NCBI GenBank assembly: GCA_030427925.1
Contig: JAUICJ010000021.1
Location: 1-50,549, forward strand
Length of the DNA stretch: 50,549 nucleotides
Direction of reading: 5' to 3'
Origin: Bacteroidia bacterium
Lineage (GTDB): Bacteria; Bacteroidota; Bacteroidia; Flavobacteriales_D; Sanyastnellaceae
How positions within the stretch are numbered: the stretch's first letter is position 1; the number at the start of each line of letters is the position of its first letter. Shown here piece after piece: positions 23,722 to 39,430 of the stretch. A program made the position numbers and the translations under genes. A model generated the notes under the pieces. It worked only from the letters and a program-made list of their open reading frames with translations. It ran no database searches and had not been told where the DNA came from.

Positions 23722-26061
23722 TCAATCACATGAGAGACCAAACAACGACAGGAATGCGAGCAGGTCAGAAGTTCCGACCGCACCATCGTTGTTCAAGTCA
23801 CCGGGGCACGCTGCGGTGGCCTCGATGATGCACGAACCGTCGTCGGTGTTGGCTGCTGGGTTGTAGTTCGAAGCCGCGTCGTAGATGCAACCCCAAACCT
23901 TCAGCGTCGCGCAGGATCCATCGTCCAGCGTAGCGTAGGGATCGAACTCGACGTAGAAGGGGTCGGTGCAACCGGGGTCCGGGCACGTCGCCGAGCAGCT
24001 GCCTGCGCAGTAAGCCACGGAGAGGTTTTCCGTTCCAACGGTCAGGGCGTAGTTGCCTCCGCCTTGTCCGAGCGGCAACTCCGGGTTTGAGCTGCATTCG
24101 GCGGGCGCGTTGATGGCTGCACCCCATCCCGAGTAACCGTCTGCAGGACCGGTCACTGCGATGACAAATTCGGTGTTCGTGTTTTCCTCAAATTCAGCGC
24201 TTCCCGTGAAGATGCCGTCTCCGTCAGCGTCCGTGAGCGTCACGCCCCATCCGTTCCAGTTGTTCCAGGCTCCATTGATGACGACGTTATCGAAGTCCGC
24301 GTTCGGGTATTCCGAAAGGTTCATGTCAATGGCGAAGTCCACCACGACCGTGGGCACCACCGTGCCGCATTCCGTGCACGAACCGTAGGTTTGGTTCACG
24401 GTGCTTCCCCCCTCAACGAGGCGATTCGCGTACGTGTTGAAGTCGGTCACCGGTGCGCACGTAGCCCCGTTCTGCATGTCGTCCACCAAGTTTTCTTGGT
24501 TCGCAAACCCGTCGACCATGTACTTGTATTCGGTTTCACCTGCTGGGAGCCACAATTCACCCGTGTAGATGCCGTCACCGTCGTCATCACTGAGCGTGTT
24601 ATAGTCGGTGGTTCCGCACCAACCGCAGAAGGGGCCCGTGATGTGAACCGTGGTGAAAGCCACGTCGGCGCAGGACATGTCCACATTGAACGTGGTCACG
24701 TACAAGCACGATCCGTCATCTTGCGTTGCCGCACCGTCGTAGTTGACGGCGGTTTCGTCCGTGCAACCGAGCACAGCAGAAGGATTGCATGGCGTGCAAG
24801 ATCCGTAGGTTTCGTTGACCGTTGAACCGGCCTCAACCAAGCGGTTCGCGTAACCCGCGAAGTCGGTAACTGGAGCGCATGATGCGCCGGCAACCATGTC
24901 GTCGACCAAGTTCTCTTGCCCGGCGAAATTGTCGACCATGTACTTGTATTCGGTCGTGCCTGCGGGGAGCCAAAGCTCTCCAGAGTAAACGCCGTCTCCG
25001 TCGTCATCGAGGAGGTCGTTGTAACCTTCGCTTGCACACCAGCCGCAGAACGGGCCGGAGATGTGCACCGTAGAGAAGGCTTCCTCCACGCAGTTCATGT
25101 CAACGTTGAAGAACGTAGCGTACAAGCACGAACCATCATCGACCGTGGCATCGCCGTTGTAGTTGGCTGCCGCATCATCCGTGCAGCCCAGCGTACCGAA
25201 GATGCAAGAACCATCATCCACGGTGGCGAAGGGGTTGTAGTTGACCGCAGCTTCGTCGGTGCATCCGAGAACATCGCCTTCACAGGCCACGCATTCATTG
25301 AAGCAAACAGCATCCAGAACGATGTCTTCCGCACCATTTACCATGAGCAAACGGTTCGTGAAAACACCAGTGGTCAGCGTGCACGCTCCGTGAACGGCCG
25401 GGTCGAATTGCTCGTCGCCGCCCCAGCCCCCGTTCAGGAACTTGTATTCGTGCGCGCCCTGTGCCATGGTCAAGGTGATGCTGTAAATGCCGTCTCCGTC
25501 GTCATCGGTGAGTGGCGTGCAGCCGCACCAGTTGTCGATGCTTCCACCCGAGATGAACACGCCCCCGGAAATGGTTTCCATGGTCATGTCAACTTGGAAC
25601 GTCACGTTAACGGGTTCAATGAATGCAGAACAGCTGCCATCCGTTGAGCAGCCCGCGAAACACGTCGTGATGGTCATGTCGCTCATGACGGGACCGATGA
25701 AGCGGTCGTTGTAATTCTGTGAGTCACCGCAAGGTTGTCCTGCGAGGTTCTCCTTGCATCCCCAGTCCCCGCAGGCACCGTTGGTGAAGGCGTAGTGTCC
25801 GCTGAACCCTTCCTCCAATTCGAAGGTGATGGAGTAGATGCCATCGCCATCGAGATCGGTCATGGGGTTGTCACCCGGGACACCGAAGTACGTGCCACCA
25901 GCGATGAACACGCCCGAGGGAGCTACGGTTTCATTCGCCATGTTGACTTCGAAGGTCACCTGGTGCGTGGTTTGGGCCGAAAGGCTGCCGATCAAGGCCA
26001 AACCACTCAGCATGCCAAACAAGCGCTTGGAGGCTGAAACATAAAAAGCAGAAGTGTTCAT
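23722..26061 (-). CDS. Modular secreted protein with repeated binding-like domains and GCTD motifs
   Basis: 779 residues. A signal peptide (to about residue 29, ending SLSAQ) is followed by beta-sandwich modules of about 110 residues that resemble glycan-binding E-set folds (DDDGDGIYSITL, EYKFLNGG). The first is about 70% identical by eye to the first module of the protein at 32754-34142. Two near-identical modules (FCGWC, LWLPAGTTEYKYMVD, ANRLVE) lie at about 313-423 and 453-562. Short Cys-containing GCTDxxAxNYNxxATxDDGSC motifs separate modules. The C-terminus, CPGDLNNDGAVGTSDLLAFL, is a single dockerin-like calcium-binding repeat; no T9SS sorting domain is visible. Likely surface-exposed or released and involved in glucan binding by context; no enzyme motif is seen. 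It has its own promoter and candidate operator. Confidence 0.82.
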   Translation of the reverse strand: MNTSAFYVSASKRLFGMLSGLALIGSLSAQTTHQVTFEVNMANETVAPSGVFIAGGTYFGVPGDNPMTDLDGDGIYSITFELEEGFSGHYAFTNGACGDWGCKENLAGQPCGDSQNYNDRFIGPVMSDMTITTCFAGCSTDGSCSAFIEPVNVTFQVDMTMETISGGVFISGGSIDNWCGCTPLTDDDGDGIYSITLTMAQGAHEYKFLNGGWGGDEQFDPAVHGACTLTTGVFTNRLLMVNGAEDIVLDAVCFNECVACEGDVLGCTDEAAVNYNPFATVDDGSCIFGTLGCTDDAAANYNGDATVDDGSCLYATFFNVDMNCVEEAFSTVHISGPFCGWCASEGYNDLLDDDGDGVYSGELWLPAGTTEYKYMVDNFAGQENLVDDMVAGASCAPVTDFAGYANRLVEAGSTVNETYGSCTPCNPSAVLGCTDETAVNYDGAATQDDGSCLYVTTFNVDMSCADVAFTTVHITGPFCGWCGTTDYNTLSDDDGDGIYTGELWLPAGETEYKYMVDGFANQENLVDDMQNGATCAPVTDFNTYANRLVEGGSTVNQTYGSCTECGTVVPTVVVDFAIDMNLSEYPNADFDNVVINGAWNNWNGWGVTLTDADGDGIFTGSAEFEENTNTEFVIAVTGPADGYSGWGAAINAPAECSSNPELPLGQGGGNYALTVGTENLSVAYCAGSCSATCPDPGCTDPFYVEFDPYATLDDGSCATLKVWGCIYDAASNYNPAANTDDGSCIIEATAACPGDLNNDGAVGTSDLLAFLSLFGLSCD

Positions 26062-26089
26062 GAGAAATCGAATTAACAGATTTGGTTCG

Positions 26090-26097
26090 TTAAGTTA
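26090..26097 (-). promoter_or_regulatory. -7-like element (TAACTTAA)
   Basis: Weak TAnnTTTG match on the minus strand, 28 nt upstream of the ATG at 26061 and downstream of a doublet of TTGTGCAG sites. Confidence 0.35.
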
Positions 26098-26129: not shown

Positions 26130-26148
26130 CTGCACAACAACTGCACAA
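26130..26148 (-). promoter_or_regulatory. Candidate operator, TTGTGCAG doublet
   Basis: Read on the minus strand, TTGTGCAG occurs twice with an 11-bp period. The site lies about 33-51 bp upstream of the -7 candidate, a normal position for an activator. The same octamer recurs upstream of the glycan operon at 36460-36549. Binding by the SusR-like regulator at 36590 is inference. Confidence 0.5.
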
Positions 26149-26184
26149 CGCCAAAAATCCCGCCGCTTCGCGCATTCAAAGCAC

Positions 26185-27360
26185 TCACTGGTACACCCGA
26201 ACGTAGTCCACGGCCATGAAGCCAGGGAATGGCGTGGTTTCATCCGGATAACCGGGCCAAATGCCGCCCACTGCAACGTTCAAAATGAAGAAGAACGGTT
26301 CATTGAACGGATACGGCTGGCCGTTCATGTTGCTGGGCGAGATCGAGAAGTATTCCTCGTTGTCGAAATACCAACGGATGCTGTCCTGTTCCCATTCGAT
26401 CGAATACACGTGGTACTCATCGGCGAGGGTTTCGGGGAACGGCACTGCGGTGGACCCACCGAGGTAGGTGTGTTGGCTGGGGTCGGCACCCCAATGCGCT
26501 GTTCCGTGAACGCGTCCGGGGTCCGATCCGATGCACTCCATGATGTCGATTTCGCCGCAATCGGGCCAGCCGATTTCCGAGAAATTGGCTCCAAGCATCC
26601 AGATGGCAGGCCAAATTCCTTGCCCAATCGGCAAGACGGCCCGGACATCCACCCGTCCGAATTGGAACTCGTGCAGGTCGATGCTTTTCAGTCGAGCCGA
26701 TGTGAACTGGCCATCCGCTACCTTCTCGGCGCGGATGATGAGGTTGCCTTGATCGATGTAGCTGTTCGTTTCATCGTTCGTGTAGTTCTGCAACTCTTGA
26801 TTGCCCCATCCGTTGGCTCCGAGGTCATACGTCCAATTCGAAGGGTCGATTTCGGGGCCGTCAAATTCGTCGGCCCAAACCAAACTCAATCCCGGATACG
26901 AAGTCGGGGCATCGTACCCTCCAACGGCAAGCTGCACGGCGGTGTCGTCGTTGCGGATGGTCCCGATGGCCACTTGCTCTTGGTCCTTCAAGAACCCATT
27001 GACCGGGTTGCTCAGCACCACGGAGAACTGCTCATCGGGTTCCAAGTACGCATCGATCACCACAGGCACCTCGATGGTCTTTGAAGTGACACCGGGTTCG
27101 AACACGAGGGTGCCCGACGTGGAAGTGAAGTCTTCCCCCACCTGGGCGGAAATTTCCTGCGTTTCGTATTGCACGGTGACCTCGTTCGTCGAAGCTGCAT
27201 CGAGGATGACCTCGAAGGAATAGGTCGAGTTGATCGCGTTTTCGAAGGCGGTTCGATCGGAAACGAATCGGATTTCGGCCAAGGCCGTCTCTCCGCCGTT
27301 GTCGCACGAGGAGCACCCCATTGCGCAAACCGTCAAACCGATGAGAACGAGGCGGGTCAT
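26185..27360 (-). CDS. GH16 endo-beta-1,3-glucanase-like lipoprotein with Calx-beta domain
   Basis: 391 residues. A lipoprotein signal (MTRLVLIGLTVCAMGC, lipid-modified Cys16) anchors the protein, presumably at the outer membrane. Residues about 28-137 form a Calx-beta domain (VGEDFTSTSGTLVFEPG, FSVVLSNP). Residues about 150-391 form a GH16 catalytic domain: WADEFDG, the active site EIDIMEC with nucleophile Glu270 and acid/base Glu275, then HGTAHWG and FFFILNVAVGG. The extra Met in ExDxxE is typical of laminarinases. The start at 27360 overlaps the stop of the upstream gene by 4 nt (ATGA). It is the last gene of the operon and would cut surface glucan into oligosaccharides for SusC/SusD import. 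Confidence 0.92.
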   Translation of the reverse strand: MTRLVLIGLTVCAMGCSSCDNGGETALAEIRFVSDRTAFENAINSTYSFEVILDAASTNEVTVQYETQEISAQVGEDFTSTSGTLVFEPGVTSKTIEVPVVIDAYLEPDEQFSVVLSNPVNGFLKDQEQVAIGTIRNDDTAVQLAVGGYDAPTSYPGLSLVWADEFDGPEIDPSNWTYDLGANGWGNQELQNYTNDETNSYIDQGNLIIRAEKVADGQFTSARLKSIDLHEFQFGRVDVRAVLPIGQGIWPAIWMLGANFSEIGWPDCGEIDIMECIGSDPGRVHGTAHWGADPSQHTYLGGSTAVPFPETLADEYHVYSIEWEQDSIRWYFDNEEYFSISPSNMNGQPYPFNEPFFFILNVAVGGIWPGYPDETTPFPGFMAVDYVRVYQ

Positions 27361-28172
27361 TGGGCGGTGAAGGTCAACGTGAAGTAGCCGTCGCCTGCTG
27401 TGCAATCGCCGTTTTGGATTTTACCATGCAGGACGAGGGTCTCCTCCGTGAGTTCAACGATGTCGTAGACCGGCCCCGAATCCCATACGCCCATGAACCA
27501 GCAAGAAGGCAACACGATTTGGTCTTCACCTGACGTGCCCGTGCCTTCCAAGAAGGTGTAGTTCAAGGCGGGCACTTCCAACGCGCTCACCACGTACCCT
27601 TCATAGGGGTTCACAGTGCCGCCATTGTTGTTGTAGACGTAATCGCCGTCGAAGCTGAACTGGTACGTGTCATCGTATTGTTCGGGGACCAAACCTCCCG
27701 CGGGAGAGGAATACCATTCCGTCGAATAGGGAATCGGCCCCACCGAAATGGCACCCGCAACGGACGACCAGGCCCAGGTTTTCTGGTTGTCGCAGCCCGT
27801 GAGCAAAGCCAACGGCCCTTCACAGGGCAGCTCCACGGTGTTGGCAATGGTGATGGAGTCCGAGGCCTGCGCCATGCCTCCTGCATTGTTCACGCTGTAC
27901 GTCACGCCGTAGGTACCCGCTTGTGGGTAGTATGCCGTGTCCGACTTCAGCGTGGAGGTCAGCCCATTGCCGAATTCCCACAAATGGAGGAAGCCGTCTT
28001 CGCTGTTGCTGGTGAACACCACGCGGTTGGAATCGCCCTCCACGTAAGACCACGAGAAGTCGGCGACGGGGCCTTCGGGAAGGTCGATGCCATCGGTTTC
28101 GTACGGACGGCATCCGGCGAGCAGCGCAATGGCTGCGCCGGTCAGTCCGAGGTAGGTGAGTGCGCGTTGCAT
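27357..28172 (-). CDS. PKD-domain lipoprotein at the SusE position
   Basis: 271 residues. The lipobox LLAGC places the lipidated Cys at residue 21. Residues about 30-110 form a PKD-like beta-sandwich (FTSNSEDGFLHLWEFGNG, then TLKSDTAYYPQAGTYGVTY). The remaining 150 residues have no recognised domain, but include several Trp and Tyr residues (NQKTWAW, TEWYSS) of the kind that bind sugars. PKD lipoproteins directly after susD are typical of laminarin loci of marine flavobacteria and act as surface glycan-binding proteins; that role here is inferred from position. The start codon overlaps the susD stop by one base and its stop overlaps the GH16 start by 4 nt. Confidence 0.82.
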   Translation of the reverse strand: MQRALTYLGLTGAAIALLAGCRPYETDGIDLPEGPVADFSWSYVEGDSNRVVFTSNSEDGFLHLWEFGNGLTSTLKSDTAYYPQAGTYGVTYSVNNAGGMAQASDSITIANTVELPCEGPLALLTGCDNQKTWAWSSVAGAISVGPIPYSTEWYSSPAGGLVPEQYDDTYQFSFDGDYVYNNNGGTVNPYEGYVVSALEVPALNYTFLEGTGTSGEDQIVLPSCWFMGVWDSGPVYDIVELTEETLVLHGKIQNGDCTAGDGYFTLTFTAQ

Positions 28173-29677
28173 CAGTATCCTGGGTTTTGTTCGATGAGTC
28201 CTCCAGAGAGGGTGATTTCAGCGGAAGGAATCGGGAAGATTTCGTGGGTTCCTTGCACGAATCCCAACGGACCGAGCACGTCAGCCGCGCGTCCTTGGCG
28301 GACCAAATCAAAGAACCGGTGCCCTTCCAAGCCCAATTCCACCCGGCGTTCGTGGTAGATCGCGTCGAGCAAATCCGCACCACTGGCCGTCACGTCAGGC
28401 AGGATCGTGTTGTCCCCTCCGCGAGCACGTTCCCGCACGAGGTTCAACGATTGGCGCGCGATGTCTTCGAATCCGTTGTGGTACGCCGCTTCCGCGTGCA
28501 GCAACAAGACGTCTGCGTAACGGATCACGCGGTCATTCGACGGTCCATTGGGGTTGGGATCCCCAAACGGCGCTTCATCAGCCGCATTCGTAAAGTACTT
28601 CTTCGGGTAATAGGGGTAGGGGAATCCCGTGGCATCCGTGGTGAACAAACCGCGATCGCCCATCACGTCCCCCTCTTGGAACACCGTTGCCCCCAATCGC
28701 GGGTCTCCCGGCTCAAATTCGCTCACGAAGTCTTCCGTGGGCAAGTTGAACCCGTATCCGCCGAATTGGCCACGGGCACGCTGGAACACGTTGGTGAACG
28801 TGCCCTCGAGTGAGTTGCCCCAGTTGCCGCCAGAAGCGTTCATGAACTGGATTTCGAAAATCGAGCCCGGTCCGTTTTCGCCTTCAAGCGTGAAGATGCT
28901 ACCGTAGTCGGGGGCCAAAGCGTATTCGCCCGAACCGACGATTTCTTCCGCGATCGGCAGGGCCTCGGACCACTTGCTTTGGTAGGCGTAAGCCTTGAGG
29001 AGCATCGCGTTGGCGGCTCCGCGGGTGGCTCGGCCGAGCTCGTTGAGCGACAACGCGCTGCGGTAAGGCAGGCGGGGAGCCGCTTCTGTGAGGTCGGTTT
29101 CGATTTGGTCCCAAATCGCTTCCGCAGTCGCCCGCGGTTGCTGGTACTCACTCGGCGCCAAGTTGTCCAGCACGAGCGGAACCCCGCCAAACGTGGTCAC
29201 GAGGTTGAAGTACCAGTAAGCCCGAATGAACTTCGCCTCTGCGAGGAACCGCTCCTTGTCGAAGCTGTCCATGTCGATGTTCGGGATGTTCGCCAAGGCC
29301 AAATTGCAATAGGCAATGCCCCGGTAGGCCGACTGCCATTCACCGAGCAGCATGCGCGCGTTGTCCTGTCCAGCGAATTGCTCGAACAGGAACAATTCGG
29401 GCTCATCGCCGTCGCCCGATCCGCCTTTGTCGGCGTCGTCCGATACGATGTCGCCGAAGTACCAGCGGAAGTGGGTGGCGAGTTGGCCTGAGCCTTGCAG
29501 CGTGGTCACTTCTTGCTGGAGCGGGTTGTAGCACGCCACGATGGCGGCTTCCGCATCTCCGGCGGTTTGGTAGTAGTTCGCAGCCGTGGAACCGACGAGG
29601 GGTTCGGCTTCGAGGAACTCTTGCTTGCAGCCCGCGAAGGCCACGGTTCCGAGAAGGAGTAGGGTAGTGGGTTTCAT
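28172..29677 (-). CDS. SusD/RagB-family glycan-binding lipoprotein
   Basis: 501 residues. A lipoprotein signal (MKPTTLLLLGTVAFAGC, Cys17) precedes a SusD fold: FLEAEPLVGSTAANYYQT with the typical N-terminal pattern, AEAKFIRAYWYFNLVTTFGGVPLVL (about residues 152-176; TPR-like helices), RATRGAANAMLLKAYAYQSKW, and the C-terminal YADVLLLHAEAAYHNG and ERRVELGLEGHRFFDLVRQG. It forms the lid on the adjacent SusC barrel and delivers oligosaccharides. It starts 10 nt after the susC stop. Specificity for beta-1,3-glucan is inferred from the neighbouring GH16 and GH3 enzymes. Confidence 0.96.
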   Translation of the reverse strand: MKPTTLLLLGTVAFAGCKQEFLEAEPLVGSTAANYYQTAGDAEAAIVACYNPLQQEVTTLQGSGQLATHFRWYFGDIVSDDADKGGSGDGDEPELFLFEQFAGQDNARMLLGEWQSAYRGIAYCNLALANIPNIDMDSFDKERFLAEAKFIRAYWYFNLVTTFGGVPLVLDNLAPSEYQQPRATAEAIWDQIETDLTEAAPRLPYRSALSLNELGRATRGAANAMLLKAYAYQSKWSEALPIAEEIVGSGEYALAPDYGSIFTLEGENGPGSIFEIQFMNASGGNWGNSLEGTFTNVFQRARGQFGGYGFNLPTEDFVSEFEPGDPRLGATVFQEGDVMGDRGLFTTDATGFPYPYYPKKYFTNAADEAPFGDPNPNGPSNDRVIRYADVLLLHAEAAYHNGFEDIARQSLNLVRERARGGDNTILPDVTASGADLLDAIYHERRVELGLEGHRFFDLVRQGRAADVLGPLGFVQGTHEIFPIPSAEITLSGGLIEQNPGY

Positions 29678-29687
29678 GCGGGTAGGA

Positions 29688-32600
29688 TTAGAAAGTTACA
29701 TTCAAACCGGCCATGAACATGCGCGGGCTCGGGTAGAATCCGCGGTCGATGCCGATTTCCAACGTACCGCGGGTTCCGACTTCTGGGTCGAGTCCGCTGT
29801 ACTTCGTGAAGGTGAATAAATTCGTCGCTGCGAGGTAAACGCGGCACTTTTCCAAACTGAGGCGGTCGAGAACCGATTCGGGCAAGTTGTAGCCGAGCTG
29901 CACGTTCTTGATGCGCATGTAGGAGCCGTCCTCCACGAACCGGTCGGAGACGCGGTTGTTGCGGTTGGGGTCCGTGTGCGACAACCGCGGTTGTTCGTTC
30001 GTGCTGCCTTCCCCCGTCCAACGCTCCAGCGCCGAGATCGGCAAGTTCGTCATGTTCAGGTCGTACCGGAAGATGCCGTTGTACAGGTCGTTGCCGTGAG
30101 AACCCTGCAGGAAAACGTTGAGGTCAAACGGCCCCTTCGATGCATTGAAGTTCAAACCGTAAGTGAAGTCGGGGTGCGGGTTGCCGATCATGACCTTGTC
30201 GTCGTTGTCGAGCACGCCATCACCGTTTTGGTCCACGAAGATGAGGTCGCCCGCGACGGCGTCCGGCTGCGCCTCGTTCGCGTCGGCTTCGGCTTGGGTT
30301 TGGAACACGCCCGCCGTTTCAAAGCCATGGAAGTAGGCCATCGGCATGCCGATTTCCGTCAACGCCGTGAAGTCACCAGAACCGAATACGTTGCCGCTTG
30401 AAATCGGCTGACCGCCTTCACCCAAGTTCGTGACTTTGTTGCGAATGACGCTCACGTTACCATTGATGTTGTACGAGAAATCTTCGCCAACGTGTTGGTA
30501 GCCCAAAGCCAATTCCACCCCAGCATTCCGCGCAGAAGCTACGTTGGTGGGCGACGGGTTGAACCCGACCACCCCGGCAATCGGGACCACCGCCAACATG
30601 TCATTCGTTTGCTTCACGAACGCATCGAGGATGATGTTGAATTTGCCTTCAAACAAATCCGCATCCACACCGATGTTCGATTGCGACACCGTTTCCCACT
30701 TCAAATCCGGATTCGAGGTAACCACCGGCCCCGCCCCGTTCACTTGCTGCTGATCGGGACCGAAGGTGTAGTTCAACCCGTTGATGACGATGGACGTGTA
30801 ATCGTAGTTTCCGATGCCGTCCGCGTTGCCGTTCATCCCCCAGCTGGCTCGAACTTTCAAGAACTCGATCCAGTCCTTCTCATCGACCCACGGGCGTTCG
30901 GTCAAATTCCAAGCGACCGACGCCGATGGGAACCATCCGTAGCGGTTGTTGATGCCGAAACGCGACGAGCCGTCACGGCGCACCGTGGCTGACACGTTCC
31001 ATTCGTCGCCGATGGCGTAGCTCCCCCGGAGGAAGGACGACAGGAAGGACGACTCGCCCCATCCGCCGCTTGCACGCGGCGACTGTTCGGCGGCGTTCAA
31101 GCTGTTGTCCAAGAAGGCCTGCTCCGGGTCGTTTGTGGTCAAACTATCGCGGCTGGCCACGACGTTCTGGTAGGTGTTCTTCAGGGCGGAATAGCCCGCA
31201 ATGAGGTTGAGCTCGTTGCCGTTCTTCAACTCGCGGTCGTACCGAGCGACTTGCTCCCATTGCCAGTTTGCCCATTGGTTTTCCGCGCGCACCACCGAGT
31301 TGACGGGGCGGAATTCATAGGCGGGCCGATTCGGGTCGTTCGCTCCGATGCCCAAATCATACGTCGGGAAGAAAATCCGCTGGCTGCCCAAGCTGTAGTC
31401 CACAGAGAACGTGGAACGGTAGGACAAACCCGGCAACAGGTCCACTTCGGCAAACGCGTTGGCCACCACGCGATTGGTGGTCCAGTCGTCGAACGTCGTG
31501 GCGATTTGGTTCGCCGGATTCGCGATGTCCGAGTCGATGAATTGCGAATACGCGTACTCGCCATCGGGACGGGTCACCGGGGTCGTGGGGTCCATGTTCA
31601 GTGCCCGCACGACCGGCGTGGTGAATTCGTTGTTTTCCGCAAGGGCGGAGCGATTGAGGTGGGTGATGTTCACGTTTTGGCCCATCCGAAAGCGTTCACC
31701 GCCCGTTTGCGTGGTGTTCACGCGGAAGGTGTAGCGCTCGAAATTGCCTTTCTCACCGCCGATGATGCCGTCTTGCGTGAAGTAGCTGCCGGTGATGGCC
31801 GTCGATCCCACGCTCGAGCCTTGCGTGTAGCTGAAGCTGTGGTTCATGATGGGCGCCCGCTGGAAGATTTCGTCCTGCCAGTCGGTGCCTTCGCCGAGGG
31901 TTGCGGGGTTGGCCAAAAGTGGATCCGGTGCCAAGCCCGCTGCCACGCGGCTTTCGTTCATGAGGATGCCGTACTCTTCGGCGTTGAGCAGGGCCATGTA
32001 CTTCCAAGGCTCCTGGATGCCGTAGTAGGTTTCGTAAGAAATTTGGGGCGGTGCTCCTGCGCTGCCCTTCTTCGTTGTCACCAAAATAACCCCGTTTCCG
32101 CCCCGCGCTCCATAGATGGCGGCGGATGCAGCGTCCTTCAGGACGGAAATGCTCTCGATGTCCGCGGGGTTCAGGTAGTCGATGCCCGATTGCGGAATGC
32201 CGTCCACCACGAAGAGGGGTTCGGCGTTGTTGAGCGAGCCCGTTCCGCGAATCCGGATGCTTTGGGTACTTCCCGGCTGTCCAGAGTTCTGGGTGACCTG
32301 AACCCCGGCCGCACGGCCTTGAAGTGCTTGTTCGGTCCGGAGGACGGGCATGGACGTGATTTCCTTGCTGTCGATGGTTCCCACGGAACCCGTGATGCGG
32401 CTCCGCTTCTCATTGCCGTAGCCGATGACCACCGCCTCTTCCAGGCCGGTGACATCGAGTTCGAGGATGACGTCGAGCTTGCCGTCCGCAGGAACCGCCA
32501 AGGTTTGTTCCAGGTAACCGATGTAGGAGAAGGTCAATTTCGCATCGGGTCCAGTGACTTCAATGCTGTAGCGTCCGTCGAGGTCGGTGAACGCACCCGT

Positions 32601-32747
32601 GTAGGTGCCTTTCTGAACGACCGTTACGCCCGGAAGTCCGCCTTCCATGTCTGAGCCGCCAACGGTTCCTTGCACCACCCGGGTTTGGGCGAGCAAGGAA
32701 CCGAAACCGACGCTCAGCAATGCGGTGAGTGTGAGCAGATGCCGCAT
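29688..32747 (-). CDS. SusC/RagA-family TonB-dependent outer-membrane transporter
   Basis: 1019 residues. Signal peptide (MRHLLTLTALLSVGFGSLLAQ), then a carboxypeptidase-regulatory-like domain (residues about 22-100: GLPGVTVVQKGTYTGAFTDL), the plug with VVIGYGNEKRSRITGSVGTI, LQGRAAGVQVTQNSGQPGS, RIRGTGSLNN and LKDAASAAIYGARGGNGVIL, and a long C-terminal barrel ending AGLNVTF. It imports oligosaccharides with energy from TonB-ExbBD. The pairing with SusD (10 nt downstream) and the glycoside hydrolases makes glycan import the likely role. It begins 6 nt after the stop of the upstream binding-protein gene. Confidence 0.96.
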   Translation of the reverse strand: MRHLLTLTALLSVGFGSLLAQTRVVQGTVGGSDMEGGLPGVTVVQKGTYTGAFTDLDGRYSIEVTGPDAKLTFSYIGYLEQTLAVPADGKLDVILELDVTGLEEAVVIGYGNEKRSRITGSVGTIDSKEITSMPVLRTEQALQGRAAGVQVTQNSGQPGSTQSIRIRGTGSLNNAEPLFVVDGIPQSGIDYLNPADIESISVLKDAASAAIYGARGGNGVILVTTKKGSAGAPPQISYETYYGIQEPWKYMALLNAEEYGILMNESRVAAGLAPDPLLANPATLGEGTDWQDEIFQRAPIMNHSFSYTQGSSVGSTAITGSYFTQDGIIGGEKGNFERYTFRVNTTQTGGERFRMGQNVNITHLNRSALAENNEFTTPVVRALNMDPTTPVTRPDGEYAYSQFIDSDIANPANQIATTFDDWTTNRVVANAFAEVDLLPGLSYRSTFSVDYSLGSQRIFFPTYDLGIGANDPNRPAYEFRPVNSVVRAENQWANWQWEQVARYDRELKNGNELNLIAGYSALKNTYQNVVASRDSLTTNDPEQAFLDNSLNAAEQSPRASGGWGESSFLSSFLRGSYAIGDEWNVSATVRRDGSSRFGINNRYGWFPSASVAWNLTERPWVDEKDWIEFLKVRASWGMNGNADGIGNYDYTSIVINGLNYTFGPDQQQVNGAGPVVTSNPDLKWETVSQSNIGVDADLFEGKFNIILDAFVKQTNDMLAVVPIAGVVGFNPSPTNVASARNAGVELALGYQHVGEDFSYNINGNVSVIRNKVTNLGEGGQPISSGNVFGSGDFTALTEIGMPMAYFHGFETAGVFQTQAEADANEAQPDAVAGDLIFVDQNGDGVLDNDDKVMIGNPHPDFTYGLNFNASKGPFDLNVFLQGSHGNDLYNGIFRYDLNMTNLPISALERWTGEGSTNEQPRLSHTDPNRNNRVSDRFVEDGSYMRIKNVQLGYNLPESVLDRLSLEKCRVYLAATNLFTFTKYSGLDPEVGTRGTLEIGIDRGFYPSPRMFMAGLNVTF

Positions 32748-32753
32748 GCGTGC

Positions 32754-34142
32754 TTATTGAATCTTGATGAGGCGCTGAACTCCGCCGTTGAGGGGAGAAG
32801 CACAGTGGATGAGGTAAATTCCTGCTTCCCAGGCGCTCGCGTCGAAGGTGAGCACCTCGCTTCCTGCAGGGATGTTGAGTTCTTGGACCAAACCGCCATC
32901 GATTCGGTGAACCGTCATGCGCGACGCATCGCCCGCGGTCCGTCCAAAGCGCACAGTGAACAATCCATCCGTGACCGAAGGGACCACATCGAATTCCCAC
33001 GTGCTCAACTCCTCGACGCTTGCGGGTTCGCAAGCGGCACAGCTGTTGAAGCAAACTTCGGGAACTTCCAACGCGAGGGTATCCGACACCGTGATCAAGC
33101 GGTTCGTGAATCCGTCCGTGGTCAAGGTGCACTCAGCGTCTTCAACGGGATCGAGCATTTCTTGGCCATCCCAGCCGCCGTTGTTGTACTTGAATTCGTG
33201 GTTGCCCATGCCCAACGCGACCGTCACGGTGTACACGCCATCGGCGTCGTCGTCCAACATTTCAACACAGGTTCCGCACCAGTTGTCAATGGTGTTGCCG
33301 GTGATGTAAATCGGCCCGAGGATGGCTTCGTTCGACAAGTCCACAGAGAAGGTCACGTCCGAAGTGCTGGGTTCCACCGGGTCGCCCGAGCATTCCACGC
33401 ATTCGCTGAAGCAGACGACGTCGAGGGTGTCCGCTGTCACGCCTCCTTCGATGGTAACGATGCGGTTCGTGAACGTGCCCGTGGTCAACGTGCACGCTGC
33501 GTCCATGTCGGGGGTCAGCTCTTCCTGACCGTCCCATCCACCGTTGTTGTAGCGGTACTCGTAGCCACCCGGCTCGAGTTCGAGCGTGACATCGTAAACG
33601 CCATCGCCGTCACCGTCCGTCATTTCGACGCAGTTGCCGCACCAGTTATCGATGGCCAAGCCCGTGATGTAAATCGGACCGACGACCGCAGTGGTGCTCA
33701 TGTCGACTTGGAAGGTCACGTCCACAGGGTCGGCAGGAGCGCTGCACGTGCCATCGGTTGAGCACTGCGCAAAGCACGTAGAAAGTGTCGTGTCGGAAGT
33801 GACGTTTTCGATGTACCGGTCGTTGTAGTTCGCGGGATCACCGCAAGGCTGTCCAACGAGGCTCTCTTTGCAGCTCCAATCGGGGCAAAGTCCGTTCGTG
33901 AACGCGTAGTATCCGCTGTAGCCGTCGGGCAATTCGACCGTGATGGAGTAGATGCCGTCTCCGTCATCGTCCGTCATCGGGTTGGTTCCGGGAACCCCGA
34001 AGTCAGCCCCGCCAGCGAGGTACACGCCGGATGCGGCAACGGTTTCGTTCGCCATGTTCACTTCGAACGTGACTTGGTGGGTTTGGGCCCACGCGGAGGC
34101 GGTGCACAGGGCACATGCCAAAAGGGTGTAGAATGATTTCAT
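32754..34142 (-). CDS. T9SS-exported glycan-binding-like protein
   Basis: 462 residues. Signal peptide MKSFYTLLACALCTASAWAQ, then three beta-sandwich modules: residues about 21-130 (DDDGDGIYSITVELPDGYSG, CGDPANYNDRY), about 138-250 and about 260-365. The latter two are close to each other (IYITGxxIDNWCGxCVEM, YNNGGWDGQE, LTTxxFTNRLI). The C-terminal 85 residues are a type A T9SS sorting signal (VVPSVTDGLFTVRF, then WEAGIYLIHC and RLIKIQ). It is therefore exported across the outer membrane and probably attached to the surface, where it could bind glucan. Paralogous to the 779-residue protein downstream. The start at 34142 follows the GH3 stop by 4 nt; the longer frame runs into that gene. Confidence 0.88.
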   Translation of the reverse strand: MKSFYTLLACALCTASAWAQTHQVTFEVNMANETVAASGVYLAGGADFGVPGTNPMTDDDGDGIYSITVELPDGYSGYYAFTNGLCPDWSCKESLVGQPCGDPANYNDRYIENVTSDTTLSTCFAQCSTDGTCSAPADPVDVTFQVDMSTTAVVGPIYITGLAIDNWCGNCVEMTDGDGDGVYDVTLELEPGGYEYRYNNGGWDGQEELTPDMDAACTLTTGTFTNRIVTIEGGVTADTLDVVCFSECVECSGDPVEPSTSDVTFSVDLSNEAILGPIYITGNTIDNWCGTCVEMLDDDADGVYTVTVALGMGNHEFKYNNGGWDGQEMLDPVEDAECTLTTDGFTNRLITVSDTLALEVPEVCFNSCAACEPASVEELSTWEFDVVPSVTDGLFTVRFGRTAGDASRMTVHRIDGGLVQELNIPAGSEVLTFDASAWEAGIYLIHCASPLNGGVQRLIKIQ

Positions 34143-34146
34143 GAAA

Positions 34147-36402
34147 TCAAGGTTTGACGAGAATGGTTGTTGTAAGGCTATCGATTCGGAGGCCAAATTC
34201 ACCGGGCTCCACCACGTAGTTGAGGTCGTGTCCGATGAAACCCAGCTCTTGAATGGGCAATTGGAAAAGGACGTTCACGCGCTGTCCAGCAGGAACGGCA
34301 ACTCGCTGAAAAGCCCGAAGGCGATCCACACTGGGGGTGACCGAAGCAACGCGATCTTGACTGAACAGCATCACCACGTCCTCAGCGTCCCGTGAACCGG
34401 TGTTGTGCAGGGTGGCGGTGACTTCGATTGTGTCGTGAAGTCCAAACTCATCACCGTCTACGCGGAGGTTAACCACTTCAACGGCGCTGTAGTTCAACCC
34501 ACTACCGAAAGTGAACAGGGGGTTGAATGCGGACAGGGAGAAGTCGGTGTGGATGCGGTCGGTGTGCTTGTGGTCGTAGGTCAAATGCGTCCCGGCTTTG
34601 CGGGGCCACGTGAAGGGCAGGTGACCGCTTGGGTTCACGGTGCCATCCAAAATGCGGGCAATCGCAGCCCCTCCTTCGTTGCCGGGCAGGTAGGCCATCA
34701 CGAAACCGTCCAGTGCTTCCACCGCGGCTTCCATGCGGCGAGGGCGTCCACCGAGGTACACTCCGATCACGGGCACTCCCGTGCGGGCAAGGGCTTCGAC
34801 GAGCGCAGTTTGGTTCGCCGCCAAGGCCACTTCCTCATCGTTCCCGACCAGCTCGGTGTAGGGCATCTCGCCCAAAAAGACCACCGCGGCTTGCGTCCGT
34901 TCCGTCGCCCGAAGGTCCGACACGGCACGGGCGATGTCGTCCTCCGTGAAATCCATCTCAAGCGGGAAATGGGAAACCGCAGCGTCCCACTGTGCGCGCA
35001 AGGCGTCAAGGGCGGTGAGCGCCCCCGGCGTGTCGTATGCGGGATTCGTGCCTTGCCACGTGCCCGTCCAACCACCGTTCAAAGCAGCCAAGGAAGCTCC
35101 CGTGGGTCCGGTAACCCAAATCGCTTCGTCGCCTTCAAGCGGAAGGACCCCGTTTTGGTTTTTCAACAAGGTAATTCCCTGCTCAGCAGCGCGTTGAGCG
35201 AGGTTCCGCTGTCCTGCGCGCCACGCATCGGAAACGGGGTGCGACACGGGAGGTCCCGGTTGCTCCACCAACCCCAAATCCCACTTCAAGCCCAGGATTC
35301 TGCGAACCGATGCGTCGATGCGTTCCTCTGCGATCCGTCCTTCCTTCACCAACTCAACAACCAGTTCAGGGAACTCCAAATCCAACGGCACCATGCTCAT
35401 GTCAATCCCCGCGTTCAACGCCAGTTCGACCGCCTCCTTGTACGTGCTGGCCACCTTGTGTCGCGTCACGAGGTACTTGATGTCCTCCCAATCGGTGACC
35501 ACAAGTCCTTCGAATCCCATCTCATCGCGCAGCAGATCCGTCAGAATGGCCCGGTTTGCATGCACCGGGATGCCGTTCATTTCACCGCTGTTGACCATCA
35601 CCGTCATGACGCCTGCATCGACACCGGCCTGGAATGGCGGGAGGAAAATTTCGCGCAGTTGCCGTTCGGGAATCCACGCAGGCGTGCGGTCTTTCCCCGA
35701 CAGCGGTTGGCTGTATCCCAAAAAGTGCTTCATGGTGGCGGCCACCGGAACGTCCCCTTCCTGCATGCCCCGGATCGAGGCAACGCCCATGGTCTTCACC
35801 AGCAACGGGTCTTCCCCGAACGTTTCCCAAAACCGCGGCCAACGGGGGTCGCGGCCCACATCCAAAATGGGTGCGAAATTCCAAGGGGTCCCCGCAGCGT
35901 GAATTTCTGCGGCCGTTCCTGCGGCCAGTTCTTGAACGATGGCGGGATTCCACGTGGCGGCTTGACCGATTTGTTGCGGGCCGAGCACTGCGCCGGTCGT
36001 GTAGTTCGCTCCGTGAACGGCATCCACTCCATATAAAAGGGGCGTCATCGGTGTGCGCTGAGCAGCCACCTTTTGCAATCCTGAAACGATGTTCCTCCAG
36101 TGCTCCAACGTGTGGGCATGGTCGCCACAATTGAGGACACTTCCAATGTGGTAGGTCGTCACCGCCTCAGCGACCTTCGCCGAATCCAACCGCTGCGGCT
36201 CCACGGGCTCAAACGGGTCGTCCCCCTCCAGCATGAATCCCAGCGTCAGTTGCGTCATCTCGCCCGCTTTCTGCTCCAGCGTCATGGCACCGAGTGTGGA
36301 TTCGATCCACGCCGAACGGTCGTTCGATGGAGCGGTTTGCTCCTCCGTTGACGTGCAAGCGAGAGCGGCCATGGCGATTCCTAAAAACAGACGAGGTTTC
36401 AT
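34147..36402 (-). CDS. bglX: Glycoside hydrolase family 3 beta-glucosidase, lipoprotein
   Basis: 751 residues. Lipoprotein signal MKPRLFLGIAMAALAC (Cys16). GH3 N-terminal barrel at about residues 25-350: LLYGVDAVHGANYT, NFAPILDVGRDPRWPRFWETFGEDP, MKHFLGYS and the nucleophile Asp304 in VVTDWEDIK. GH3 C-terminal domain at about 395-600 (AEQGITLLKNQNGVLPL) and a fibronectin III-like domain at about 660-740 (DAEDVVMLFSQD). Releases glucose from the non-reducing end of beta-glucan oligosaccharides, probably in the periplasm or on the membrane. It is the first gene of the operon; the start at 36402 follows a TACTTTG promoter-like string by 6 nt. The upstream in-frame ATG at 36429 lies above that string. 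Confidence 0.93.
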   Translation of the reverse strand: MKPRLFLGIAMAALACTSTEEQTAPSNDRSAWIESTLGAMTLEQKAGEMTQLTLGFMLEGDDPFEPVEPQRLDSAKVAEAVTTYHIGSVLNCGDHAHTLEHWRNIVSGLQKVAAQRTPMTPLLYGVDAVHGANYTTGAVLGPQQIGQAATWNPAIVQELAAGTAAEIHAAGTPWNFAPILDVGRDPRWPRFWETFGEDPLLVKTMGVASIRGMQEGDVPVAATMKHFLGYSQPLSGKDRTPAWIPERQLREIFLPPFQAGVDAGVMTVMVNSGEMNGIPVHANRAILTDLLRDEMGFEGLVVTDWEDIKYLVTRHKVASTYKEAVELALNAGIDMSMVPLDLEFPELVVELVKEGRIAEERIDASVRRILGLKWDLGLVEQPGPPVSHPVSDAWRAGQRNLAQRAAEQGITLLKNQNGVLPLEGDEAIWVTGPTGASLAALNGGWTGTWQGTNPAYDTPGALTALDALRAQWDAAVSHFPLEMDFTEDDIARAVSDLRATERTQAAVVFLGEMPYTELVGNDEEVALAANQTALVEALARTGVPVIGVYLGGRPRRMEAAVEALDGFVMAYLPGNEGGAAIARILDGTVNPSGHLPFTWPRKAGTHLTYDHKHTDRIHTDFSLSAFNPLFTFGSGLNYSAVEVVNLRVDGDEFGLHDTIEVTATLHNTGSRDAEDVVMLFSQDRVASVTPSVDRLRAFQRVAVPAGQRVNVLFQLPIQELGFIGHDLNYVVEPGEFGLRIDSLTTTILVKP

Positions 36403-36408
36403 CGTGTG

Positions 36409-36415
36409 CAAAGTA
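36409..36415 (-). promoter_or_regulatory. -7-like element of the glycan operon (TACTTTG)
   Basis: A TAnnTTTG-like string with one base fewer in the spacer, ending 6 nt before the GH3 ATG at 36402. The operator pair at 36461-36476 is 46-61 bp upstream of it. Confidence 0.4.
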
Positions 36416-36460
36416 CAACCGGTGTTCACGTTGGGGTCTTTTCAGTGCGTTTTTAACTGC

Positions 36461-36476
36461 TACACAACCTGCACAA
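36461..36476 (-). promoter_or_regulatory. Candidate operator pair (TTGTGCAG / TTGTGTAG)
   Basis: On the minus strand TTGTGCAG and TTGTGTAG stand in direct repeat with a 9-bp period, upstream of the glycan operon. The octamer also occurs at 36514-36520 and, inverted, at 36543-36549, and as a doublet at 26130-26148. Confidence 0.5.
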
Positions 36477-36513
36477 TTTACTTAGTGTGCGATTTACAAT
36501 ATTGCTCATGAAC

Positions 36514-36549
36514 TGCACAAGATATGTGATTTAAGCTTGTATTTGTGCA
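36514..36549. promoter_or_regulatory. Candidate operator, inverted TGCACAA/TTGTGCA
   Basis: TGCACAA (36514-36520) and TTGTGCA (36543-36549) are inverted and 22 nt apart in the AT-rich divergent region between the glycan operon and its regulator. The right arm lies about 27 bp upstream of the regulator's -7 motif, so autoregulation is possible. Confidence 0.45.
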
Positions 36550-36576
36550 ATGTTCGACCACATGGCGACTTTGAAT

Positions 36577-36589: not shown

Positions 36590-39430
36590 ATGCAGAAACA
36601 CCTATACAGCGTTTTTCTCGTTGCGCTCTCGGTTTGGTTGGGCGCACAGGACACGATTGAGTCCTTGGGGGGCGATCTTGCCGTGGTCCATGCCTTCAGC
36701 CGGAGCGAGGTTGGAGGGGGGCTGATGACCACCGATTTGGAAGTCGTTCCGGGGGAATGCGTTTATGCTGCGAACCAAAGTGGGCTGTTGGTGTTCGATG
36801 GTGGAGGTTGGGAGTTGGTTCCCATGCCGAATCGCGGGGTGTCGCGAAGCTTGCTCCCCGTTGAGGAAGGCGTTTGGGTGGGCGGTCAGGGCTTTTTAGG
36901 GAAACTCGTTTCTTTGGAGCCCGTGGAGTGGCAGGATTGGACGGGCGAGTTGATTGCTGCGGCGGGCGACTTCGGCGACGTGTGGGGTTTGGAGGCTGGA
37001 GAGGGCGGGATGTTCGTCCGGACATCGTCCTTTGTTGGATTCCTTTCAGAAGAAGGCGCGTTCCGGGTTTTGGCGTCGGGTTCGGTTACGACCGGATTCA
37101 AGGTCGATGAGGGGTACGCTTGCCAACGCGGGGAGGCATTGCTCCGCTTTGACGCTCAAGGTCGATTGATGGGGGAGTGGGAGTTGCCAAAGGGGGTGCG
37201 GGTGCAGGCATGGATTGACGGAGCTGACCCGCGCGTGCTCACGCACTCCCGTGGGGTCTGGCAGTGGGACGGCTCGAGTTGGCTGCGTGAGTCAACGCCG
37301 GCCAGTGCGGCGCTGTCGGAGGCCCGGGCGAACGTGGTGGTGGCTTCCCCGGAGGGATGGTTGGTGGGCACAGCTCAGGGTGGGGTGGTGGTTACCCGGG
37401 ATTGGTCTTCTGTGAGTGCCCGGTACGCGGAATCGGCGGGTTTGACGGGCACTTCCGTCGTTGACATCGCCGTGGATGACATCGGAAATGCGTGGGTGGC
37501 AGCGGAAGGCGGATTGAACATCATCCGATTCAGTTGGCCACAACGGGTTCCTCAGATGACGGAATCCCTGAAGGAGTCGGGTTATTCTTCGCTGCACCTG
37601 GCCTCGGGGCGCCGGTACTGGGGCACTTCCCTGGGGGTGAAGACCCAGGCGTCGCGGAATGCGCCGCTGGTGCCGGTGATCGGGGTGGAAGACCAAACCT
37701 GGTCCTTGCAACTCCTCAATGACCGCCCGTGGGTTTCGCACTTGAGCGGAGCGGGGTGGTTGGAGGGAGCGGAGTACGTGCCGGTCATCCAGGGGGTGGG
37801 GGTTTGGGAGGTGATCGATCAGCCCGGAACGTCCTTCCATTATGCCGGCACCTTCAACGGATTGATGCGCCTCGATTTGTCCGGGAAGCATCCCCCGGTT
37901 CCCGTTGAGGGATTTCAGGAGACGGCGCGCTTCGTGGCCTTTGAGTCGCAGCGCGTTGTTTGGGTCGCTTATCCTTATAAGGGTGTGTATCGGGTTGAAC
38001 TGGACGAGGAGGGGACGCGGGCCGTGCAGGTGCGTCTGTATGCGAGTGCGGACGGGTTGCCGGAACCGGTTCATGTGGAAGTGTTCGATGCCGCGGGCGA
38101 TCCGATTTTTTCCACGAACGACGGGTTTTACCGCTACGATGCGGCGGCGGATCGGTTGGTGCCTGCGCGCGAGGCGTTCGCGGGGATGATTCCACGAGAA
38201 GGCCACGTCGAGCGCTTGTATGCGGGTGAGCATGCGACGTGGTGGTTTCTTCAAGGCCAAACCGCAGGCCAAATCCACCCCCAAACTTCCAACCTCAAAA
38301 CGAGCATGGAAGTGCGCCGCATCCCGCTCACCGGCACGCCGTTGGTGGCGCCCTTCGAACGGTTGGAGCTGTTGACGGAAGACCGCGTGTGCGTCCCCGT
38401 TGAGAGCGGCTTCCTGTACCTCGATGCGAATCGGATGGCGGTTGACGCGGCACCGCCTGCGCTGACCGTACATTCCGTGACGCATTTGAACAGCGGAGAG
38501 GGCGCCCGCAATTTGCCGGTCGATCACACCACGCTGAATCCGGGCAACCACGCGTTGGAAATCCGGCTTCGGGGATTCGACCCCAACTGGGCCGGCGTCC
38601 AGCGCTACCAGTGGCGCCTCGATGGCGAGGGGGCGGAATGGTCCCGTCCTCAGGAGTCCGCCCGCGTCATGCTCGGGGGGCTGGGCCCCGGAACGCACCG
38701 CATTCAGTTCCGCGCCATCATCGAGGACGGCTTCACCGGTCCGGTGACGGATTGGGAGGTTCGGGTGGACCACCCTTGGCACGAGCGCTGGGAGTTCAGG
38801 GCCCTGTTGCTCGCCCTGCTCCTCGCGGGCGGGATTTGGTTCATCCGGTGGAAGCAGCGGCGCATCCGCATCGAACACGCCCGGGATTCCGCGCGCATCG
38901 AAGCCGACCGGGTGCGGTCCGAAGAGCGCTACCGGCGCGAAATCGAGTCCACCGAACTCCGCTTGGAAGCCGAACGGTTGCGCCGCGTTGAAGCGGAAGT
39001 GGCGGCGAAGAATCAGGAGTTGGCGTCGGCCACCATGCATTTGGTCCAAAAAGCGCAGATGACCGCGACCCTGCAAACGGGCCTTCAAGCCCTGCGCGAG
39101 AGCGTGGCCACCACGGAACGCAAGCAAGTCGATAAGCTGCTGTCGGTGCTCGGTGCCAGCTCACGGCTCGATGACAATTGGGAACAGTTTACCCAGCAAT
39201 TCGACCAAGTCCACGTGGAATTCCACAAGCGGCTGCTGGAGCAATTTCCCGACTTGACGAAGAACGACCTCAAGCTGTGCACGTACTTGCGCATGAACCT
39301 TTCCTCCAAGGAAATCGCCTCGCTCACGTTCGTGACGGTGCGTGCCGTGGAAGTGAGCCGGTCGCGCTTACGCAAGCGGTTGGGCCTCGATCCGAGCGAG
39401 AACCTGCTGCAATTCATTCAAAGTTTGTGA
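36590..39430 (+). CDS. SusR-like membrane-spanning transcription regulator
   Basis: 946 residues. A signal peptide (MQKHLYSVFLVALSVWLGAQ) leads into a periplasmic region of propeller-type repeats (residues about 25-600; GNAWVAAEGGLNIIRF and GLLVFDGGGWELVP are typical of regulator-propeller blades), then a Y_Y_Y-like domain (about 655-728; FDPNWAGVQRYQWRLDGEG). One transmembrane helix is at about 735-757 (FRALLLALLLAGGIWFIRW), followed by a cytoplasmic coiled coil rich in Arg/Glu, and a C-terminal LuxR-type HTH (about 880-946; LCTYLRMNLSSKEIASLTF, RAVEVSRSRLRKRLGL). There is no histidine kinase or receiver domain, so it should sense sugar and bind DNA in one chain, as SusR does. Divergent from the glycan operon, which it probably controls. 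Confidence 0.88.
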   Translation: MQKHLYSVFLVALSVWLGAQDTIESLGGDLAVVHAFSRSEVGGGLMTTDLEVVPGECVYAANQSGLLVFDGGGWELVPMPNRGVSRSLLPVEEGVWVGGQGFLGKLVSLEPVEWQDWTGELIAAAGDFGDVWGLEAGEGGMFVRTSSFVGFLSEEGAFRVLASGSVTTGFKVDEGYACQRGEALLRFDAQGRLMGEWELPKGVRVQAWIDGADPRVLTHSRGVWQWDGSSWLRESTPASAALSEARANVVVASPEGWLVGTAQGGVVVTRDWSSVSARYAESAGLTGTSVVDIAVDDIGNAWVAAEGGLNIIRFSWPQRVPQMTESLKESGYSSLHLASGRRYWGTSLGVKTQASRNAPLVPVIGVEDQTWSLQLLNDRPWVSHLSGAGWLEGAEYVPVIQGVGVWEVIDQPGTSFHYAGTFNGLMRLDLSGKHPPVPVEGFQETARFVAFESQRVVWVAYPYKGVYRVELDEEGTRAVQVRLYASADGLPEPVHVEVFDAAGDPIFSTNDGFYRYDAAADRLVPAREAFAGMIPREGHVERLYAGEHATWWFLQGQTAGQIHPQTSNLKTSMEVRRIPLTGTPLVAPFERLELLTEDRVCVPVESGFLYLDANRMAVDAAPPALTVHSVTHLNSGEGARNLPVDHTTLNPGNHALEIRLRGFDPNWAGVQRYQWRLDGEGAEWSRPQESARVMLGGLGPGTHRIQFRAIIEDGFTGPVTDWEVRVDHPWHERWEFRALLLALLLAGGIWFIRWKQRRIRIEHARDSARIEADRVRSEERYRREIESTELRLEAERLRRVEAEVAAKNQELASATMHLVQKAQMTATLQTGLQALRESVATTERKQVDKLLSVLGASSRLDDNWEQFTQQFDQVHVEFHKRLLEQFPDLTKNDLKLCTYLRMNLSSKEIASLTFVTVRAVEVSRSRLRKRLGLDPSENLLQFIQSL

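Follow-up and report, generated by a model that had tools for sequence, protein, structure and literature searches.

Organization of the Glycan Locus

The window, that is, the whole stretch analyzed here (50,549 nucleotides; contig JAUICJ010000021.1 of assembly GCA_030427925.1, from a Bacteroidia bacterium of the family Sanyastnellaceae), contains a glycan locus in which TGTGCAG repeats lie upstream of two minus-strand units, a GH3-SusCD-GH16 operon and the separate gene for a 779-residue protein (hereafter the 779 gene; Table 1). Genome comparison makes it highly likely that these repeats are the operator of the transmembrane SusR-like regulator that is encoded divergently at the locus. The operon reads GH3, SusE/F-like protein, SusC, SusD, PKD-domain protein and GH16, nearly without gaps, and is followed after 123 bp by the 779 gene. 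The N-terminal part of the 779-residue protein shares 61% identity with the operon's SusE/F-like protein. The regulator gene diverges from the GH3 gene and stands beside the SusCD and hydrolase genes.

Table 1. Genes and promoter features of the glycan locus, in window coordinates.
Feature	Position	Strand	Remarks
Putative operator of the 779 gene	26130–26148	-	TTGTGCAG-TTG-TTGTGCAG; two TGTGCAG heptamers 11 bp apart; exact TTGTGCAG at 26130–26137 and 26141–26148
Putative proximal operator heptamer, GH3 operon	36469–36476	-	Exact TTGTGCAG; 60 bp before the -7-like element
Putative distal operator heptamer, GH3 operon	36513–36520	-	Exact TTGTGCAG; 44 bp upstream of the proximal heptamer
TTGTGTAG, second GH3 copy	36460–36467	-	9 bp on; 2 bp out of register
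TTGTGCAA, inverted copy before regulator gene	36543–36550	+	Not conserved
-7-like element TAACTTAACG of the 779 gene	26088–26097	-	Putative promoter element
Conserved TACTTTGCACAC, -7-like, just before GH3 start codon	36404–36415	-	Contains inverted TGTGCA
Regulator gene	36590–39430	+	HTCS-like periplasmic sensor, one membrane helix, coiled coil, C-terminal NarL-like HTH
Codons of predicted recognition helix	39338–39379	+	Residues 917–930 (VRAVEVSRSRLRKR)
779-residue protein	23722–26061	-	Glycan-binding (AMPK1_CBM / X25-like) domains; Pfam E 7e-16
GH16 with Calx-beta domain	26185–27405	-	Last operon gene; Pfam
PKD-domain protein	27357–28172	-	Pfam
SusD	28172–29677	-	Pfam
SusC-type TonB-dependent transporter	29688–32747	-	TIGR04056, 842 bits
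SusE/F-like protein	32754–34202	-	CBM48 / X25-like domains; Pfam
GH3	34147–36402	-	First operon gene; lipoprotein-like start; ATG at 36402, read from sequence

Arrangement of the Repeats in the Genome

The density of the octamer TTGTGCAG alone is uninformative. It occurs 95 times in the 2.95-Mb genome (reversed control, 243 times), and octamers with one mismatch are at chance level in the window (38 found, 42 expected), so that the bare octamer means little. It is the position and arrangement of the copies, not the octamer itself, that go beyond chance. A genome-wide search for pairs, TTGTGYAG-N1..4-TTGTGYAG, finds two tandems, both in the promoters of the window, and the reversed-pattern control finds none. 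Outside the window, 88 of 90 exact octamers lie inside open reading frames (ORFs) of at least 100 aa, as defined by a mechanical ORF caller, with 6.6% of the bases around these sites falling outside such ORFs. By the same rule one of the five copies in the window is inside an ORF and four are intergenic (binomial p 9e-5, a post hoc value, the window having been picked for these sites). One of the two non-ORF copies elsewhere is not upstream of a same-strand gene; the other (L241:1688; G000:C47:22596) is a single octamer upstream of the gene for a Fib_succ_major protein, and no further copy outside the window was found to precede a gene.

All the copies listed in the original prediction are present, two of them displaced by one base there (36461 and 36514), but an additional exact copy in the window had gone unlisted (34403–34410, plus strand). 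This copy lies inside the GH3 gene; the other four exact copies are intergenic. The comparisons below support, as the probable operator unit, the heptamer TGTGCAG in helical register rather than an octamer pair of any spacing.

Conservation in the Congener and the Family

In the congener G001, whose regulator is 56% identical to that of the window, two TGTGCAG heptamers stand 44 bp apart before GH3, matching the window, and the 19-bp doublet recurs unchanged in the order GH16 - TTGTGCAGTTGTTGTGCAG - 779 homologue. The wide pair TGTGCAG-N35..37-TGTGCAG is found once in the genome of the window and once in the congener, both times at this promoter; nine other family genomes lack it. Away from its glycan locus, the congener also carries a head-to-tail repeat of GATGTATATGT at 11 bp (G001:C374:11936–11963).

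Across the family, TGTGYA is located 49–51 and/or 60–62 bp before TAMWTTGCACAC in all nine GH3 promoters (window, G001, G087, G005, G063, G046, G082, G263, and G275), and the strict 11-bp tandem is found in six of them. The pattern TGTGYARNNNNTGTGYA has nine matches in 11 family genomes, six of which are in these loci (reversed pattern, three).

A Different Word in Distant Orthologues

In orthologues at 22–30% identity, GATGTAG takes the same place as TGTGCAG. GATGTA ranks first among the 6-mers of 11 non-redundant upstream regions, with 32 copies against 2.4 expected and three on the opposite strand; L049, which has GATGTA, was excluded from these regions as a near copy of L050. Among the 24 GATGTA pairs within 60 bp, 21 are spaced 11, 21, 32, 33, 42, 43 or 44 bp, and spacings of 11, 21, 32/33 and 42–44 bp are whole helical turns. 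Nine of the 11 regions contain such a phased pair (shuffles: mean 0.02, maximum 1). In 14 genomes that have GATGTA-type regulators, the tandem pattern GATGTANNNNNGATGTA matches 38 times (reversed control, 11); by our own placing, these matches fall in the regulator's locus (19), on separate contigs (5) and elsewhere (14).

Architecture of the Regulator

The regulator has no Pfam match at E 0.001, and a Pfam search up to E 1 found no kinase, receiver or AraC-type helix-turn-helix (HTH) domain in it. A profile built from 19 orthologues matches the periplasmic sensors of hybrid two-component systems (HTCS), namely 3v9f (E 2.5e-50), 4a2l and 3ott. The membrane helix was read from the sequence. The C-terminal part was modelled as a coiled coil followed by an HTH (pLDDT 79, pTM 0.47), and the modelled HTH superposes on NarL-type domains with a root-mean-square deviation of ~1.6 Å over ~61 residues (TM ~0.75 by target length, Foldseek E 0.04 or worse). 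Positions 922 and 925 may correspond to base-contacting residues of NarL, for which a literature search found no source; this correspondence was not used as evidence. In a sample of 395 genomes from across the phylum, 75 contain homologues of the regulator.

Co-change of the Repeat Word and the Predicted Recognition Helix

Regulators with F/Y914, A919 and S925 have TGTGYA upstream in all eight cases for which both HTH and promoter are available (window, G087, G005, G063, G082, G046, G263, and G275); G263 and G275 (L246 and L247) were found after the rule linking helix and word had been formed, and both fit. Regulators of the G919/Y925 (Ser923/Tyr925) type in the order of the window have GATGTA in 14 of 14, as a single copy in G002; these 14 comprise an initial 12 plus G126 and G025. 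The congener stands outside the eight as its contig ends before the HTH; L248 and L249 lack a usable promoter. For G082, G126 and G025, promoter and HTH were read on different contigs, over which the regulator is split, and are assumed to belong to one gene. L039 (G013; F914, A919, I922, and F925), with GATGTAG and TGTGTAG 22 bp apart, was counted separately as a possible evolutionary intermediate in both helix and operator.

The phylum-wide set consists of 98 regulator genes behind 100 of 102 listed rows (G000 and G006 excluded; two genes with two rows each). Phased GATGTA pairs are present at six of 10 Ser923/Tyr925 regulators and at none of the 88 others, with ~0.1 expected overall from shuffles. 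Of the remaining four Ser923/Tyr925 regulators, one has a TGTGTAG-11-GATGTAG hybrid (L278), one a single GATGTA, and two have none. No phased GATGTA pairs lie upstream of regulators with Lys923 (31) or Arg923 (19), and 6-mer counts for the Lys/Arg923 regulators among the first 53 regulators gave no convincing motif. Repeat spacing extends up to 55 bp in other orders. A sub-family with helix SVYISRSRLRKK and Ser923/Ser925 (L348, L359, and L362) is without GATGTA upstream.

This co-change of repeat word and recognition helix ties the sites to this regulator: because words and DNA-reading part changed together in relatives, the repeats are very probably its landing sites. The comparison thereby supports the SusR-like regulator as the binder, as the original prediction had proposed.

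Promoter Elements and Other Candidate Sites

The repeats also keep regular distances to putative promoter elements. In the 779 promoter, the starts of the two TGTGCA cores precede the -7-like element by 39 and 50 bp, and both TAAYTTAACGAACC and these distances are kept in the congener, with the block TAAYTTAACG common to the two species. A form of the TACTTTGCACAC block is present in nine of nine family GH3 promoters, and TANTTTGCACAC is unique in the genome of the window. As TACTTTGCACAC almost abuts the GH3 start codon, the GH3 mRNA may be nearly leaderless. The -7 promoter consensus of Bacteroidota is TAnnTTTG, which TACTTTG and TAACTTAA of the window merely resemble. The exact consensus occurs 38–39 bp after the start of the nearest GATGTA in six of 11 distant orthologues, and no copy lies within 450 bp in the other five. 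The -7-like motifs noted downstream of the repeats are placed at corrected positions as putative promoter elements (Table 1).

Two inverted elements were considered and set aside. TTTGCACAC at GH3, conserved in nine of nine promoters and unique in the genome, was dropped as a third, inverted half-site, since it lies in the -7 region, where operator and initiator are indistinguishable. The inverted TTGTGCA (TTGTGCAA) noted before the regulator gene is present, but a role in autoregulation was rejected, as it is absent from the congener. In the distant relatives G012 and G031, GATGTAG is found at the start of the regulator gene.

The 779 Gene as a Probable Regulon Member

The 779 gene had been proposed to belong to the same regulon with a promoter of its own, and the comparison argues for this: the doublet is identical in the congener, and 779-like genes in five genomes (G006, G025, G012, G031, and G016) are preceded by tandem GATGTA, the operator word of these relatives. 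In G016 and G025 the 779-like gene and the regulator are on different contigs. A genome of another family (G111) has a second operator-bearing operon (L174:10937–14769), beginning with genes for 678- and 598-residue proteins that have no Pfam match. In the lineage of the window the 779 protein is very probably a regulon member, and comparison supports a dependence of the membership of 779-type genes on lineage.

Alternative Explanations

An unlikely alternative is that the regulator acts at the GH3 promoter but that the doublet before the 779 gene is a functionless copy. In the sister genus, the closest 779 homologues, which lie elsewhere in the genome (G005:C18, G063:C26, G024:C19, G048:C58, and G087:C135; L251–L255), have TGTGYA upstream in none of five cases, as this explanation would have it. 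These homologues probably sit in another glucan locus; in all five genomes they follow a transporter-like gene (LSFWxIWNMSFGFLG). Against a functionless doublet, its 19 bp are identical in two species despite diverged flanking intergenic DNA and regulators only 56% identical, the 39/50-bp distance to the conserved -7-like block is kept, and in five other genomes the 779-like genes are preceded by the alternative operator word.

It is improbable that the repeats belong to another DNA-binding protein, such as a catabolite or nutrient regulator acting at glycan promoters. The assignment to the SusR-like regulator rests on comparison, and single sites do occur elsewhere, including the one upstream of the Fib_succ_major gene (L241). 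A general regulator, however, would be expected to have tandems at many promoters, whereas the only two found are both in the locus; the word co-varies with the recognition helix of this regulator; and GATGTA tandems number two in 10 genomes without a full-length regulator match versus 38 in the 14 with GATGTA-type regulators. That the conserved blocks are mere -33 and -7 elements of ordinary Bacteroidota promoters, with no operator at all, is very improbable: the TACTTTGCACAC block at GH3 probably does represent one and the -7 family is degenerate, but the repeats occur as phased multiples 38–62 bp ahead of the -7-like element, show strand specificity (32 versus 3) and track the regulator class.

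Assignment of the repeats to the SusR-like regulator must also be set against several observations that weigh on the other side. The pair predicted upstream of the GH3 operon is present in both its copies, but TTGTGTAG as a regular second copy is unsupported: it lies 9 bp instead of 11 from its neighbor, as the window has two bases fewer here than the congener, and the equivalent copy in relatives is 11 bp away or degenerate. Whole-genome specificity of the operator patterns is only moderate. Three of the nine TGTGYARNNNNTGTGYA matches are in G024 and G048, genomes without the regulator, and a GATGTA pair at 31–33 bp is of little use alone as a genome-wide search key (24 matches versus 16 for the control in the 14 regulator genomes). 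Among the distant orthologues, G002 and L045 lack a strict phased pair, as do L270, L278, L322 and L351 within the Ser923/Tyr925 class. The 779-like gene in the locus of G033 has no strict pair upstream, and the absence of TGTGYA from the sister-genus 779 homologues bears on the regulon in the same way. Regulators with Gly/Ala923 have single GATGTA in excess (12 versus 2.9 expected in 20 regions), which indicates that the residue rule is graded, not strict. Finally, the switch of helix and word to TGTGCAG probably was a single evolutionary event, so that by shared ancestry the counts of eight and 14 are not independent.

A Model for Regulation of the Locus

The repeats, their positions, their distance from the promoter, their conservation and their co-change with the helix are established by sequence comparison. 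In the model favored here, the SusR-like regulator would sense an oligosaccharide in the periplasm, possibly a gluco-oligosaccharide, perhaps beta-1,3-linked as in laminarin. Its C-terminal NarL-like HTH would bind the direct repeats, with their spacings of 11 and 44 bp, on a single face of the DNA, where protomers would presumably be arranged side by side. The targets would be the GH3-SusE-SusC-SusD-PKD-GH16 operon and the separate promoter of the 779 gene. As the repeats end just upstream of the expected -33 region, the regulator most likely activates both units.

GH16 together with GH3 suggests that the substrate is perhaps a beta-1,3-glucan, e.g., laminarin. The CBM48, AMPK1_CBM and X25 domains, which are of starch-binding type, and the neighboring GH97 gene leave room for an alpha-glucan. 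The GH97 gene (39432–41609, minus strand) ends beside the regulator gene though the operon is of the GH3/GH16 type, and the whole-genome tandem search found no tandem operator near it.

At the level of the phylum, the data lean toward a common code for SusR-like regulators, consisting of heptamers in helical register. The older word GATGTAG would be read by a NarL-like helix with Ser923/Tyr925, and the lineage of the window (Ala919, Ser925, and an aromatic residue at 914) would have changed both the helix and the operators, including that of the accessory glycan-binding protein, to TGTGCAG, with L039 in between.

Relation to Known Systems

NarL/FixJ domains (VraR, LiaR, DosR, and NarL) have an HTH fold that resembles the model of the regulator, within the limits of that model (pTM only 0.47, E 0.04 or worse). 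NarL/FixJ response regulators have a receiver domain and a four-helix HTH, whereas no receiver match was found in the window's regulator. NarL usually binds inverted sites, and the repeats here are head-to-tail. The PhoB box, located next to the promoter, consists of 7-bp direct repeats with 4-bp spacers, i.e., 11 bp apart, the same repeat geometry as here; PhoB is a winged-helix response regulator and no homology is implied.

The closest described counterparts are the SusR-like regulators of Bacteroides (SusR BT3705, SusR2 BT3091, SusR3 BT3309, and SusR4 BT2160), which, as far as the available text of Ravcheev et al. (2013; PMC3878776) goes, are likewise membrane-anchored sensors with a C-terminal HTH, encoded mostly beside SusCD or hydrolase genes. 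Their operators, as predicted there, are direct repeats in helical register, like those of the window, but with a long spacer: the boxes are 67 or 77 bp apart, a spacing not seen here, where repeats come in twos and threes mostly at 11, 32/33 and 42–44 bp. This comparison concerns architecture and spacing. The mismatch in spacing lowers identity with the described SusR sub-type, not the likeness to SusR-like regulators. The same account gives direct repeats on average 21 bp apart for HTCS boxes, and similarity of motifs that tracks similarity of regulators among the SusR-like proteins (PMC3878776). The HTCS of Bacteroides share the kind of periplasmic sensor (3v9f) and the direct-repeat operators with the present system, but combine a histidine kinase, a receiver and an AraC-type HTH in a single chain, none of which was matched in the regulator of the window (Pfam, to E 1).

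Beta-1,3-glucan loci of Bacteroides combine GH16, GH3, SusC, SusD and a glycan-binding protein with an adjacent HTCS or SusR-like regulator, as here, and the available part of that report describes no operator (PMC7157763). The mechanism of SusR is termed undefined in the excerpt at hand of a further paper (PMC6874557). Among the titles and abstract openings covered by the literature search, only PMC3878776 deals with SusR-like motifs, and none with such operators in Flavobacteriales. To that extent, SusR-like regulators and direct-repeat operators are already known, and the spacing and the co-changing word are new.

Judging from the available text of PMC3878776, SusR-like operators have so far been predictions only; short, specific words with regular distances to the promoter are now available for them. 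As the helix-operator pair differs between sister lineages, binding, dimer geometry and specificity become testable by swapping a few residues or bases. With the repeats as a guide, likely targets of such regulators can also be listed easily in the glycan loci of Bacteroidota.

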